From a virus, in IMG/VR virus record IMGVR_UViG_3300046543_000784, positions 1 through 33,059 of that record: DNA of 33,059 nucleotides; one strand, given 5' to 3'. A model generated the notes under the pieces. That model was given only the letters and a program-made list of their open reading frames with translations, was not told the DNA's origin and made no database searches. This document shows positions 2,700-21,092 of this stretch, piece after piece. Made by a program: the position numbers and the translations under genes. The stretch's first letter is position 1. Each line of letters opens with the position of its first letter.

Positions 2700-3712
2700 C
2701 GATCTTCGGACCAGACATCTCCTCCTACCAGCACGGGCTGAACCTGGCCGCGTTGGGCTCCGGCGCGTTCGTTATCGCCAAGGCCACCGAGGGCACCTAC
2801 TACACCGACGCCGACTACGAGGGATGGCGACTCCAGGCCGCAGCGCTGCACAAGCCGTTCGCCTGGTACCACTTCCTGTCCGGCGAGGACGCGACCGCTC
2901 AGGCCGCGCACACCGCGGCGAAGGTCGGCGACGAGTCGCTGCCCGGCATGCTCGATGCCGAGCCCGCGGGGAGCTTCCGGCCGACGCTCGCACAGATCTA
3001 CGCGTACATCGACGCCGCGCACGCCGCCGCGCTGAACCTGCGGCTGCTGTACCTGCCGCACTGGTACTGGGAACAGCTGGGCTCGCCGGACCTGTCCGGC
3101 CTGACCGCCCGCGGCGTGAGCCTCGTGTCGTCGGCATACCCGGGCGGTACCGGCTCGCCGGCCGCGCTGTACCCGGGCGACGGCGCCACGGGCTGGCAGT
3201 CCTACGGCGGTAAGACGCCGCTGATCTACCAGTTCACGAACCAGGCCACCGACGGCGGCCAGCCGCTGGACTACAACGCCTACCGCGGCACCGAGGCACA
3301 GCTGGTCGCCGACCTGAATCCCACGGCCCCGGCCCCCGCGCCTACTCCCGCACCACCATCTACCGACCCGGAGGACGACCTCATGCCCGCTTTCGCAACA
3401 GGAGAGATCAAGCCAGGCGCCAGCGCCGTGACCGTTGTGTGCCCGCCGCCGGCCAACGTGGGATCCGCAGGCTGGGGCAACGTCTGGTTCAGCCTGGGCT
3501 GCGACTTCGGCGACGCCGACGTGCGCGTGGCCGTCTACACCCACGGCGCCGGCTGGTCCGAGATCGACCAGGACATCAAGGTGACCGCCGCCGGGGACCG
3601 GGTCAACCCGCACGGCGGCCCGCTGCCGACCGGCGTTCAGAAGATCAGCATCACCCGGACCGCCAATCCGGACGTGCCGATGTCCTACCTGATCGAGGCG
3701 GCGCACCGATGA
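2696..3712 (+). CDS. Endolysin: glycoside hydrolase family 25 muramidase with C-terminal domain
   Basis: 338 residues. The GH25 domain covers about 4-205 and should cleave the beta-1,4 MurNAc-GlcNAc bond of peptidoglycan. Visible marks are GPDISSYQ (Asp7), the DxE pair in GMLDAEP (Asp87, Glu89), and the late strands WQSYGG (167-172) and LDYNAY. A Pro/Ala linker (209-222) leads to a C-terminal domain (230-338) rich in beta strands, probably for cell-wall binding. There is no signal peptide, so export depends on holins, several candidates for which lie nearby. The start overlaps the previous gene (ATGA). An in-frame ATG at codon 230 has its own Shine-Dalgarno site (see separate entry), so a short second product is likely. 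Confidence 0.9.
   Translation: MTIFGPDISSYQHGLNLAALGSGAFVIAKATEGTYYTDADYEGWRLQAAALHKPFAWYHFLSGEDATAQAAHTAAKVGDESLPGMLDAEPAGSFRPTLAQIYAYIDAAHAAALNLRLLYLPHWYWEQLGSPDLSGLTARGVSLVSSAYPGGTGSPAALYPGDGATGWQSYGGKTPLIYQFTNQATDGGQPLDYNAYRGTEAQLVADLNPTAPAPAPTPAPPSTDPEDDLMPAFATGEIKPGASAVTVVCPPPANVGSAGWGNVWFSLGCDFGDADVRVAVYTHGAGWSEIDQDIKVTAAGDRVNPHGGPLPTGVQKISITRTANPDVPMSYLIEAAHR
3370..3385 (+). promoter_or_regulatory. Internal ribosome-binding site and start codon within the endolysin gene
   Basis: GGAGG at 3370-3374 is followed by exactly 8 bases and an in-frame ATG at 3383-3385 (codon 230). It sits at the junction between the Pro-rich linker and the C-terminal domain. Translation from here would give a free 109-residue C-terminal domain. 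Internal starts making free binding domains are known in endolysins such as Enterococcus phage Lys170 and clostridial CTP1L/CD27L. Use of this site is inferred from spacing and position only. Confidence 0.6.
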
Positions 3713-13552: not shown

Positions 13553-14004
13553 CCCGCCCGCACCCCGCCCTCACCGCGCTGGTCGCCCTCGCCCTGGCCG
13601 CCGACGCCGTCATGGCGACCGTCACCGCCTGGCACTCCACCGCGCTGGCCGTGTGGCTGGCCGCGATCGTGCTCGCCTACGCCTCGGCACTGGCGCTGAT
13701 CTACGCGGCCGGGACCATCTGGCACAGCACCCGCAACGCCGCCTTGCACCGGGCCCGCAGACGCCTGTACGCGCCGGACGGGCGCCCGCGTCCCAGTGAG
13801 GGCAGCCGGCCTGTCGCACCGGTCGACGGACGCCACGCGCGGGCCATGGCCGCGGTCGCTGCGGAGATGCCGCCGAGCAGGCCTCGCACGTCGGTGTACG
13901 GCGCATCGCAGGCCGCCCGCAGCGCCACGCAGCTGCCGCAGACGCAGCCGCTGCCGGCGCTGGACGACACCGTGGTGATGGCGGCGGTCGGGGGCGGGAG
14001 GTGA
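13549..14004 (+). CDS. Membrane protein, early operon
   Basis: 151 residues; AAGGAGG eight bases before the ATG. Two hydrophobic segments (about 8-25 and 32-54) are followed by a basic stretch (RNAALHRARRRLYAP) and a long low-complexity cytosolic tail. It overlaps the methyltransferase gene by four bases. Function unknown. Confidence 0.6.
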   Translation: MTRPHPALTALVALALAADAVMATVTAWHSTALAVWLAAIVLAYASALALIYAAGTIWHSTRNAALHRARRRLYAPDGRPRPSEGSRPVAPVDGRHARAMAAVAAEMPPSRPRTSVYGASQAARSATQLPQTQPLPALDDTVVMAAVGGGR

Positions 14005-15104
14005 GCCTCCGCATTGGCTCGCTGTGCGCCGGCATCGGCCTGCTTGACCTGGCCGTCATGGACGCGCTCGGCGGCGAGGTCGCCTGGCACGCCCAGCACG
14101 ACCCCGACGACCCCAAGCAGTACGCCGCGAAGATCCTGGCGCACCGCTTCCCGGGCGTGCCGAATCTCGGCGACATCACCGCCATCGACTACGCCGACGT
14201 GGAGCCGGTCGACGTGCTCACCGCCGGCTGGCCCTGCCAGGACATGTCTCTGGCCGGCCTCGGCGCCGGCCTGATGCCCGGCACCCGCTCGGGACTCTGG
14301 TACCACGTCGCCCGCGCCATCGCCGCCCTGCGGCCGCCCATCGTCATCCTGGAGAACGTCAGGAGCCTGACCAGTGCCCGAGCACATAGCGACGTGGAAC
14401 TCTGCCCGTGGTGTATGGGAGACCTCGACGACCGGCCTGTTCTGCGGGCACTTGGTGCCGTTCTTGGAGACCTGGCCGACCTCGGGTTCGATGCGGAATG
14501 GCTCTGCCTTCCTGCATCCGACATCGGAGCCCCGCACCAGCGATGGCGAGCCTTCGTCCTCGCCTGGCCTTCCGACGCCCCGCGCCCGGGACTGGAAGAC
14601 CGGCGGCAAGGATGGCCTGGAGGAGGCGATGCTTCCGACGCCGATGGCAGCGGACGGTGGCGCGGGCCGGGGTTCGTCGGCGGGCCATGGGCTCAGGAAC
14701 ACCTCGCGGGCGATCGCCCGGCAGTCGTCGCTCTCGGCGCCGGTGCTCCTACCAACGCCGACAGTCTCGGACGCGAACGGTGCGGGCAGCCACGGGGACG
14801 GCGGATCGGATCTCCGCACGACGATCAGCGCGCTGACGTCGACTGGGGACCGTACACCGCCGCCGTCCGTCGCTGGGAGCGCCTGACCGACGTGGCCGCG
14901 CCGGCACCGACCGCGCCCGGCAAGAACGGTCCGCGCCTGTCGCCCGCGCTGCCCGAGTGGATGATGGGCGCCCCGGCCGGCTGGGTCACCGACGTGCCCG
15001 ACATCCCGCGCAGCGCGCAGTTGAAGGCGCTGGGCAACGGCGTGGTGCGGCAGCAGGGCGCGGCCGCGGTGCGGATCCTGATGCGCCGCCTCGCCGCCCC
15101 GTAG
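14001..15104 (+). CDS. DNA (cytosine-5) methyltransferase
   Basis: 367 residues with the ordered C5-methyltransferase motifs: I, LCAGIGLLDL (8-17), SAM binding; IV, GWPCQ with catalytic Cys79; VI, ENVRSL (118-123); VIII, HQRWRAFVLA (179-188); and X, KALGNGVVRQQ (342-352). The region between VIII and X (about 190-310), where the target-recognition domain lies, is Gly/Arg/Asp-rich and low in complexity. Phage methyltransferases commonly protect their DNA against host restriction; no cognate nuclease is seen. Codons 126-295 or so share their DNA with a second reading frame (14374-14886). There, third positions in this frame are much poorer in G/C than elsewhere in the gene. Two strong hairpins follow the stop. 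Confidence 0.9.
   Translation: MSLRIGSLCAGIGLLDLAVMDALGGEVAWHAQHDPDDPKQYAAKILAHRFPGVPNLGDITAIDYADVEPVDVLTAGWPCQDMSLAGLGAGLMPGTRSGLWYHVARAIAALRPPIVILENVRSLTSARAHSDVELCPWCMGDLDDRPVLRALGAVLGDLADLGFDAEWLCLPASDIGAPHQRWRAFVLAWPSDAPRPGLEDRRQGWPGGGDASDADGSGRWRGPGFVGGPWAQEHLAGDRPAVVALGAGAPTNADSLGRERCGQPRGRRIGSPHDDQRADVDWGPYTAAVRRWERLTDVAAPAPTAPGKNGPRLSPALPEWMMGAPAGWVTDVPDIPRSAQLKALGNGVVRQQGAAAVRILMRRLAAP
14374..14886 (+). CDS. Nested overlapping gene: LPTP-repeat protein
   Basis: 170 residues in the +1 frame inside the methyltransferase gene. GTG 14374 has AGGAG eight bases upstream. The start reads like a globular domain (HIATWNSARGVWETS; HLVPFLETWPTSGSMRNG). Three repeats follow: GLPTPRARDWKTGG, MLPTPMAADGGAG and LLPTPTVSDANGAG. 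By hand count of the first 90 codons, about 18% end in A or T in this frame and about 37% in the methyltransferase frame, so codon bias favours the nested frame here. I recall similar LPTP-repeat proteins in actinophages, without a known function. Both frames look genuine, so this is probably true overprinting. Expression is unproven. Confidence 0.7.
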   Translation: MPEHIATWNSARGVWETSTTGLFCGHLVPFLETWPTSGSMRNGSAFLHPTSEPRTSDGEPSSSPGLPTPRARDWKTGGKDGLEEAMLPTPMAADGGAGRGSSAGHGLRNTSRAIARQSSLSAPVLLPTPTVSDANGAGSHGDGGSDLRTTISALTSTGDRTPPPSVAGSA

Positions 15105-19781: not shown

Positions 19782-20119
19782 GCACGGCCACGCTCGGCCC
19801 GAATGACGAACCGCAGTACTCCGGTGCCGTGGTCGCCGTCGACTACGGCGACCACCACGCCCAGGAAATCTGGGTCCGCAGCTGCGCGAACATCGGCGCC
19901 TGGTACCTGCTCGGCGGCGAGTTCGGCCGCGTGATCAACGATGGCATTCCGAGACCGCCGCAGCACCCGCACTGGGAGCACGTGCTTGCCCGTGGCCCGG
20001 TGACGCTGCTGACGCGCGGCGATGCGGCTACCTACGCCGCTGGCTGGCGTAACGGACGCAGGCACTTGGTGGAGCAGATGGAGCCGCTGATTGACGACTA
20101 CCCGAGGGAGGGGCAGTGA
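19778..20119 (+). CDS. Early protein of unknown function
   Basis: 113 residues from GTG 19778. Beta-rich N-terminal half (SGAVVAVDYGDHHAQEIWVR; GAWYLLGGEFGRVINDG) and a helical end (YAAGWRNGRRHLVEQMEPL). No family recognised. Four-base overlaps on both sides. Confidence 0.6.
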   Translation: MSTATLGPNDEPQYSGAVVAVDYGDHHAQEIWVRSCANIGAWYLLGGEFGRVINDGIPRPPQHPHWEHVLARGPVTLLTRGDAATYAAGWRNGRRHLVEQMEPLIDDYPREGQ

Positions 20120-20304
20120 CCACCGGCGAAGTGCACGAGGCGGCCGAGCAGCCGCAGGACGACGGCGACGTGCGGGCGGCGGCGGCGCTGCTGGCCGCCA
20201 AGGCCCCATGCTGCGGCGGACCGCACGCGGGCTGGATCCACACCGCGGAGTGCGCCACCCCGCAGCAGCCCGCGCGCGACACGGCGGACGGCGGTGCGGA
20301 GTGA
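20116..20304 (+). CDS. Small Cys-containing early protein
   Basis: 62 residues from GTG 20116. Low complexity apart from APCCGGPHAGWIHTAEC (about 30-46), a possible metal site. It overlaps the PP-loop enzyme gene by four bases. Confidence 0.55.
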   Translation: MTTGEVHEAAEQPQDDGDVRAAAALLAAKAPCCGGPHAGWIHTAECATPQQPARDTADGGAE

Positions 20305-21092
20305 GCACTCACGTCGTCCAGTTCTCGTCCGGCATCGGCTCCTGGGCGACCGCCCGCCGCGTTGCCGAACGCCACGGCACCGACAACCTGGTGCTCCTGT
20401 TTGCCGACACCCAGGACGAAGACCCCGACAACTACCGCTTCGCCATCGAGGCCGCCGCCAACATCGGCGTTCCGCTGACCACCGTCGCCGACGGCCGCGA
20501 CGTCAAGCAGGTTATGCGTGATGAGCGGTTCCTCGGAAACTCCCGCATCGCGCCCTGCTCCAAGCTGCTCAAGCAGGTCCCGTGCCGGAACTGGCTCAAG
20601 GCCAATACGGACCCCGCTGACACGGTCCTGTGCGTCGGCATCGACTGGACCGAACTCCATCGCACCCCAGCAATCCGTGCCGGATGGGCGCCCTACCCGG
20701 TCGAGTTCCCGATGACGGAAGCCCCGTACATCGACAAGAACGCAATGCAGGCAATGGCCAGGGCCGAGGGTCTCGAACCGCCGTCGATGTACCGCGACGG
20801 CTACCCGCACGCCAACTGCGGCGGCTGCTGCGTTCGGCAGGGACAGGCCGGCTGGGCGCTGACGCTGCGCGTGCACCCCGATCGGTACGCCGCCATGGAG
20901 GCATTCGAGAACGAGATGCGGGGCGAACTCGGCGACGTAGCGATGCTGCGAGATCGCACGGGCGGCGAGACGCGGCCGTTGACCCTGGCCACGCTGCGCC
21001 AGCGGATCGAGTCCACACCGCAGCAGGACGCGCTCTTCGATTCATACGACTTCGGTGGCTGCGGCTGCCTGACTGAAGGGTTGGCCGCGTAA
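20301..21092 (+). CDS. PP-loop (PAPS-reductase-like) ATP pyrophosphatase family enzyme
   Basis: 263 residues from GTG 20301. The N-terminal FSSGIGSWATA (8-18) is a variant PP-loop (usually SGGxxS), followed by LVLLFADTQDEDPDNYRF and FLGNSRIAPCSKLLK. This is the layout of phage members of the PAPS reductase/DndC family, which activate a substrate with ATP, often in sulfur transfer. Cys86, a CxxCC set (173, 176, 177) and a CxC pair (254, 256) could bind an iron-sulfur cluster or carry sulfur. A role in DNA or tRNA modification is plausible, given the methyltransferase in the same operon, but the substrate is unknown and no other dnd-like gene is seen. Confidence 0.8.
   Translation: MSTHVVQFSSGIGSWATARRVAERHGTDNLVLLFADTQDEDPDNYRFAIEAAANIGVPLTTVADGRDVKQVMRDERFLGNSRIAPCSKLLKQVPCRNWLKANTDPADTVLCVGIDWTELHRTPAIRAGWAPYPVEFPMTEAPYIDKNAMQAMARAEGLEPPSMYRDGYPHANCGGCCVRQGQAGWALTLRVHPDRYAAMEAFENEMRGELGDVAMLRDRTGGETRPLTLATLRQRIESTPQQDALFDSYDFGGCGCLTEGLAA

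Follow-up and report, generated by a model that had tools for sequence, protein, structure and literature searches.

A conserved +1 reading frame nested in a phage C5-cytosine methyltransferase gene and its probable role as a second subunit of the same enzyme

Long same-strand gene overlaps that are conserved across bacterial phyla are, to our knowledge, very rare, and it is usually their reality that is in question. Bacillus phages SPR and phi3T encode multispecific C5-cytosine DNA methyltransferases with modular target-recognition domains (TRDs). Lee, Kam and Shaw reportedly found in 1995 that M.EcoHK31I needs both of its chains and that beta is translated from a different frame within the gene for alpha. 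M.EcoHK31I consists of two polypeptides, of which alpha holds motifs I-VIII and X and beta holds motif IX (PMC3404938). M.AquI is also made of two polypeptides, its small chain carrying the distal variable region and motifs IX-X (PMC3404938). An out-of-frame HNH endonuclease, the ShiLan domain, has been described in an actinophage DNA methylase (PMC11855218).

The stretch of DNA analysed here (the window) is a whole IMG/VR virus record (IMGVR_UViG_3300046543_000784) of 33,059 nucleotides. Its genes include those for an integrase, a terminase, a portal protein and an endolysin, and it therefore probably comes from a temperate phage. Actinobacteriophages are its closest annotated relatives in the methyltransferase gene, ORF1. 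The ORF1 product was matched to Pfam PF00145 (3.5e-28), to phrog_363 (3e-58) and, with Foldseek, to M.HhaI (2.3e-14), and it has the invariant PCQ and ENV and the C5 fold of the PF00145 family. In the AlphaFold (AF2) model the pLDDT was mostly 95 or higher for residues 1-200, except for a dip at residues 131-150, and 96 for residues 283-365. Between these confident flanks the model gave residues 202-272 no structure, and the same residues are near-neutral in relatives; no folded TRD is found between motifs VIII and IX of this chain. The low-pLDDT gap lies where the TRD sits in C5 enzymes of known structure (M.HhaI). Elsewhere in the window, positions 20091-21092 encode a phosphoadenosine phosphosulfate reductase-like protein (phrog_424, 4e-46), possibly a second DNA-modification or sulfur-metabolism gene.

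A first-pass annotation had reported a 170-codon frame, shifted by +1, within the methyltransferase gene. This frame, ORF2, was located exactly at 14374-14886 with its GTG start, and the AGGAG described eight bases before the GTG is present (Table 1). The hand counts of A/T third positions over the first 90 codons were reproduced: A/T makes up 17.8% of these positions in the nested frame and 36.7% in that of the methyltransferase. Outside the overlap the third-position A/T content of ORF1 is 4.1% upstream and 2.8% downstream, so that in the shared DNA third positions are not free in either frame. As annotated, translation placed motif VIII within the shared DNA and motif X beyond it; motif IX lies beyond it as well. 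The three LPTPxxxDxxxG repeats had to be qualified: the boxes are found at nested residues 66, 87 and 126, and two of them fit the pattern, the third (LPTPTVSDANG) only loosely.

The signals for starting the nested frame are written into ORF1 with rare codons. The arginine after ENV is AGA or AGG in 42 of 64 loci, as against 123 of 1070 overall, and a start codon, a Shine-Dalgarno sequence and an upstream stop occur jointly in 31 of 81 loci, where 2.0 would be expected. About half of the loci sampled by methyltransferase motif IV have no start codon exactly at the conserved place and must begin upstream. The N-terminal domain of the nested protein has five invariant residues (W8, W15, S37, G38 and G43). 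The nested protein was matched to phrog_1008 (7.9e-25, positions 71-230 of 329) and the C-terminus of ORF1 to positions 200-320 of the same family; searches of Pfam, NCBIfam and the PDB gave no match for the nested protein. Foldseek with the ORF2 model against the PDB found nothing significant (best E 0.62), with weak matches to C5-methyltransferase C-termini only, and a fold search among viral models returned only kin. For a close homologue, the nested chain of the nearest relative (L014), AF2 predicted a small beta domain of five short strands with a pLDDT of about 90 over most of residues 1-50, whereas the pLDDT was about 50 over the LPTP array and mostly 73-88 in the C-terminal part.

Table 1. 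Features of the overlapping methyltransferase locus (window positions)
Feature	Position	Strand	Remarks
ORF1, C5-cytosine DNA methyltransferase (proposed alpha chain)	14001..15104	+	GTG start, 367 aa; motifs I-VIII, linker, motifs IX-X
Putative AGGAG ribosome-binding site of ORF2	14361..14365	+	Written inside ENVRSL codons (Arg AGG)
ORF2, nested +1 frame (proposed beta chain)	14374..14886	+	GTG start, 170 aa
ORF2 N-terminal domain, ~50 aa, IATWN..W..E..LF...LETWPTSG.MRNG	14374..14523	+	Overprinted on ORF1 motif VI-VIII
Motif VIII of ORF1 (GAPHQRWRAFVLA)	14526..14564	+	Translation; inside shared DNA; selection on both frames
ORF2 array of LPTP modules, a putative modular region for target recognition; boxes start at 14569, 14632 and 14749	14569..14883	+	Selection in relatives; cis modules in L226
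ORF1 residues 202-272, near-neutral linker with no predicted structure, read from the DNA of the LPTP array	14604..14816	+	AF2 pLDDT 30-40; frame open
Motif IX block of ORF1 (RLSPALPEWMMGAPAGWVT)	14934..14990	+	ORF1 frame here; ORF2 frame in relatives L014/L093
Motif X block of ORF1 (LKALGNGVVRQQ)	15021..15059	+	Translation

Relatives of the nested protein were detected by tblastn in 305 phage records. In a scan with the nested profile, the domain was found in the +1 frame of the methyltransferase, over motifs VI-VIII, in all of at least 90 loci. A DNA pattern for WPxSGMxRxG, which is blind to the methyltransferase, gave 120 stretches, and all but 6 of them lie over a C5 methyltransferase at that same offset. 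A stand-alone nested copy was looked for among these 120 matches and none was found, the 6 off the methyltransferase being chance matches. The first 210 loci were found via the nested motif, and the counts were therefore repeated on loci chosen by methyltransferase motif IV alone. Of the loci with a recognised motif VIII region, 62 of 76 from viruses and 75 of 75 from bacterial genomes have the nested N-terminal domain at this offset; the counts held, and ascertainment bias was rejected as the source of the co-occurrence. The first-pass annotation had named, as evidence against a nested gene, homologous methyltransferases whose nested frame holds stops or random sequence; this was not the outcome, since of the 151 loci chosen by motif IV alone 148 lack a stop across the final 36 codons of the motif VIII region. 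The expectation that both frames occur together at one offset was thus borne out in hundreds of loci sampled in several ways. In a divergent form, found in phages of Salmonella, Klebsiella, Acinetobacter, Pseudomonas, Vibrio, Microcystis and others, the nested frame opens four bases past the ORF1 start and spans almost the entire ORF1.

Some copies of the gene depart from the common form. In two loci from Gordonia-type phages (L036 and L045, both at 2498-2994) about 460 bases are inserted between ENV and the region of the nested start, the kind of place reported for the ShiLan/HNH insertion (PMC11855218). In phages Polka14 (L005) and GigiOuiOui (L008) ORF1 shifts frame at GTRSGLW, near 1765-1780 and upstream of the overlap; in the near-identical RitaG (L006) it is intact. 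Mycobacteriophage Tweety (L010) has two copies of the gene (161-946 and 1501-2613), and in the first of these motifs I-VIII and the nested domain were detected and motifs IX-X were not. An E. coli prophage copy (L383, 1201-1962) is annotated as a pseudogene, and stops break both of its frames.

Selection over motifs VI-VIII was measured in 66 independent pairs with a simplified OLGenie-type count by effect in both frames, not with the published program. The nested dNN/dNS was 0.25 (0.19-0.32) and the methyltransferase-frame dNN/dSN 0.12 (0.09-0.15). In the controls this selection was weak in DNA lying upstream in these genes (nested ratio 0.70) and absent when the +2 frame was scored (2.31). 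For loci with the layout of the window (class A, below) it was 0.22 (0.16-0.29). Position-wise differences moved as expected, falling at third positions and rising at first positions. In 206 of 210 related loci the score of the nested domain was above that of all 100 synonymous-codon shuffles of ORF1, and no stop was observed in the nested stretch of the 210 loci, where codon shuffles gave an expectation of about 213. For the window itself the nested profile score was 110 bits, and its shuffles averaged 32 (z = 8.2). By selection, the nested frame is coding. The frame-specific check proposed in the first-pass annotation, done here with the simplified count, thus showed purifying selection in both frames over motifs VI-VIII. 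The broader statement that both frames are under constraint stands for these motifs and fails for the LPTP part: there selection acts on the nested frame alone, and the methyltransferase frame, near-neutral, is only kept open.

This difference was seen in 106 independent aligned stretches of relatives. In the LPTP region the nested frame is strongly conserved, with a dNN/dSN of 0.11 (0.09-0.13), whereas the ORF1 frame has a dNN/dNS of 0.77 (0.60-1.01) and a dSN/dSS of 1.04. In class A, where motifs IX-X can be reached only by reading through, ORF1 is nevertheless kept open across the array, with 13 stops observed against 179 expected and an open frame in 169 of 170 loci against 78 expected. 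In class B, where ORF1 need not be read through, 432 stops were observed against 416 expected. Being near-neutral yet free of stops, the part of ORF1 that shares the DNA of the array in class A behaves like a linker that is tolerated. LPTP modules also occur in the ORF1 frame in 33 of 74 class A loci. One relative (L226) has a single ORF with motifs I-VIII, four LPTP modules, motif IX and motif X in that order, nearly without the nested N-terminal domain (profile score 7.4); its modules are repeated between VIII and IX, which is the position and the modularity of modular multi-TRD methyltransferases. This one-frame order makes the LPTP array a part of the same enzyme, situated between its motifs VIII and IX.

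The relatives were assigned by profile and regular expression to three layout classes. Class A is the layout of the window, with motifs IX and X both in ORF1 and no methyltransferase motif in the nested chain. In class B (for example L002, L003, L004 and L014/L093) motifs IX-X are on the nested chain, together with the nested domain and the LPTP array. In class C (for example L096, L107 and L110) the nested chain has motif IX (LNPTWVEWLMGFPLGWT) and ORF1 has motif X; over the DNA of motif IX, ORF1 reads EPDVGRVAHGVPxRVDRL, and the nested ATG lies 4 nt after the ORF1 start. At motif IX both frames are selected in class C (nested 0.04, ORF1 0.16; few pairs) and only the nested frame in class B (ORF1 1.12; few pairs). 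A tree built from 187 ORF1 sequences has class C as one clade, and changes between A and B number 15 by parsimony and at least 10 by well-supported branches. The window and its nearest relative (L014/L093) differ in class, A against B, at 85% identity over motifs I-VIII. A run of nine G in the LPTP array of L093 (about 3340-3380), near the change of frame relation to IX-X, is a possible slippage or phase-variation site.

Based on these results we propose, with a probability of roughly 0.7, that the gene encodes a two-chain C5-cytosine methyltransferase in which the nested ORF supplies a trans-acting target-recognition subunit of the same enzyme. The alpha chain (ORF1) would contribute the catalytic motifs I-VIII and motifs IX-X, with only a low-complexity linker in the usual TRD stretch. 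The beta chain (ORF2) would be translated from its own GTG, with its own ribosome-binding site inside ORF1, and would consist of a small N-terminal beta domain as a putative docking part and of the LPTP array, for which position and modularity suggest the role of TRD. We infer that the two chains assemble and that beta provides the sequence specificity in trans. If the LPTP modules can be swapped or lost, a temperate phage could change the sites that it methylates, and this might plausibly counter host restriction. Several points speak against this proposal: the low AF2 confidence of the LPTP modules, the lack of a significant PDB match for ORF2, the LPTP modules found in the ORF1 frame of some class A relatives, the loci with no start codon exactly at the conserved place, and the case of M.EcoHK31I, in which it is the larger of the two chains that holds the predicted TRD (PMC3404938).

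The nested ORF had been described as a second gene. A second conserved coding frame is indeed overprinted here, and we read it as a subunit of the same enzyme rather than as an unrelated gene because the LPTP array stands in cis between VIII and IX in L226 and because the nested frame carries IX, or IX-X, in other lineages. The opposite reading, that ORF2 has a job of its own, for example as a regulator or an anti-restriction protein, and was overprinted on the methyltransferase by chance, would fit its own start signals, its confidently predicted small N-terminal domain with no Pfam or PDB match, and the lack of a methyltransferase motif in the class A nested chain. It does not account for the same chain holding methyltransferase motifs in classes B and C, nor for the failure to find a stand-alone copy among the 120 pattern matches. 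We regard it as unlikely.

Alternatively, a programmed ribosomal frameshift or transcriptional slippage could fuse the frames into one chain (I-VIII, LPTP, IX-X), and no free nested protein would be made. The occurrence of LPTP, IX and X in different frames among relatives and the run of nine G in L093 would agree with such a chain. However, the nested frame is under protein-level selection before the end of motif VIII, where a shifted chain would still be reading ORF1, and this selection ahead of any useful shift point makes a single frameshifted chain less likely than two chains. Also the conserved ribosome-binding site, GTG and upstream stop, and the nested ATG so close to the ORF1 start in class C, are at odds with a fusion, which in class A would moreover need two shifts. 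We therefore consider this explanation quite improbable.

That the nested frame is an untranslated shadow of a conserved methyltransferase and its codon bias is very improbable. High G+C makes long alternative frames common, and the nested frame of the window stays open in 0.94 of the synonymous shuffles, so that its openness alone is unremarkable. Against this stand the profile scores, the dNN/dNS ratios and the start signals far above expectation, together with the selection on LPTP, which tracks the nested frame and not ORF1; the codon shuffles and the two-frame selection tests, with their upstream and +2-frame controls, refute it. An assembly or indel artefact of a broken split gene, which the class B layout of the nearest relative might suggest for the window, is hardly credible, since no layout is commoner than class A (118 of 187 tree rows), whose ORF1 is free of stops across the array.

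Returning to the two-chain enzyme, we lean, if only slightly, towards a wider reading in which most phage C5 methyltransferases of this lineage would be two-frame enzymes. In these a swappable LPTP array would act in trans, the linker of the large chain would be the unselected second reading of that array, and motifs IX-X would move between frames, giving a subunit family born by overprinting. The same principle may have arisen elsewhere too. Three loci (L284, L289 and L293) belong to another methyltransferase lineage, of the FGVAQRRRR / FGVPQRRRR type, and have a long +1 frame that covers motif VIII, extends past it and has words in common (CSLSDILE...YSLSPKACAGILRRAAKRG in L284 and RYYLSAKAAEGILRRA in L289 and L293); in L284 this frame continues to RRLTPAECERLQGFPDGWT, which looks like motif IX.

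For this overlap, hundreds of natural sequences answer the question of reality statistically, and the function is suggested by a known enzyme class, the two-polypeptide C5 methyltransferases. Many phage proteins now called 'hypothetical' or 'DNA methyltransferase' would be the other half of a methyltransferase that they overlap, and annotating such genes as single, split or broken would often be wrong. A large chain cloned alone may yield an inactive or mis-targeted enzyme. The system also makes the birth of a new protein by overprinting testable, and likewise the repeated change of frame of a catalytic block without loss of function. No description of the conserved nested frame was found in the literature, as covered by open-access texts. 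Two-polypeptide C5 enzymes are already known; the present layout, its breadth and the frame swapping appear to be new.

Several known systems resemble this locus in part. The PHROG family phrog_1008, labelled 'DNA methyltransferase', mixes the nested chain with the methyltransferase C-terminus, and its label is silent on its being the second frame of another gene. ShiLan concerns the same gene family and likewise an overlapping frame; it is, in contrast, a mobile insertion that brings its own frame and not a conserved nested chain. Enzymes of the SPR/phi3T type have arrays of modules of about 30-40 aa between VIII and IX, as in L226, whereas the array here is usually on a second chain and in another frame. 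The layout of M.EcoHK31I (YGGCCR) is that of the class C relatives, with IX in the +1 frame; the window differs in having IX in alpha, so that beta has only the N-terminal domain and the LPTP array. When the M.EcoHK31I sequence was sought in E. coli genomes only prophage relatives were found, and the likeness is drawn from its described layout. M.AquI has the layout of class B relatives (L002, L003 and L014), whereas the window keeps IX-X in the large chain and its overlap is long and conserved in both frames. The window is not strictly of either layout, because IX and X are both in ORF1, and its gene would work like M.EcoHK31I and M.AquI rather than being one of them, with both of these layouts seen among its relatives.
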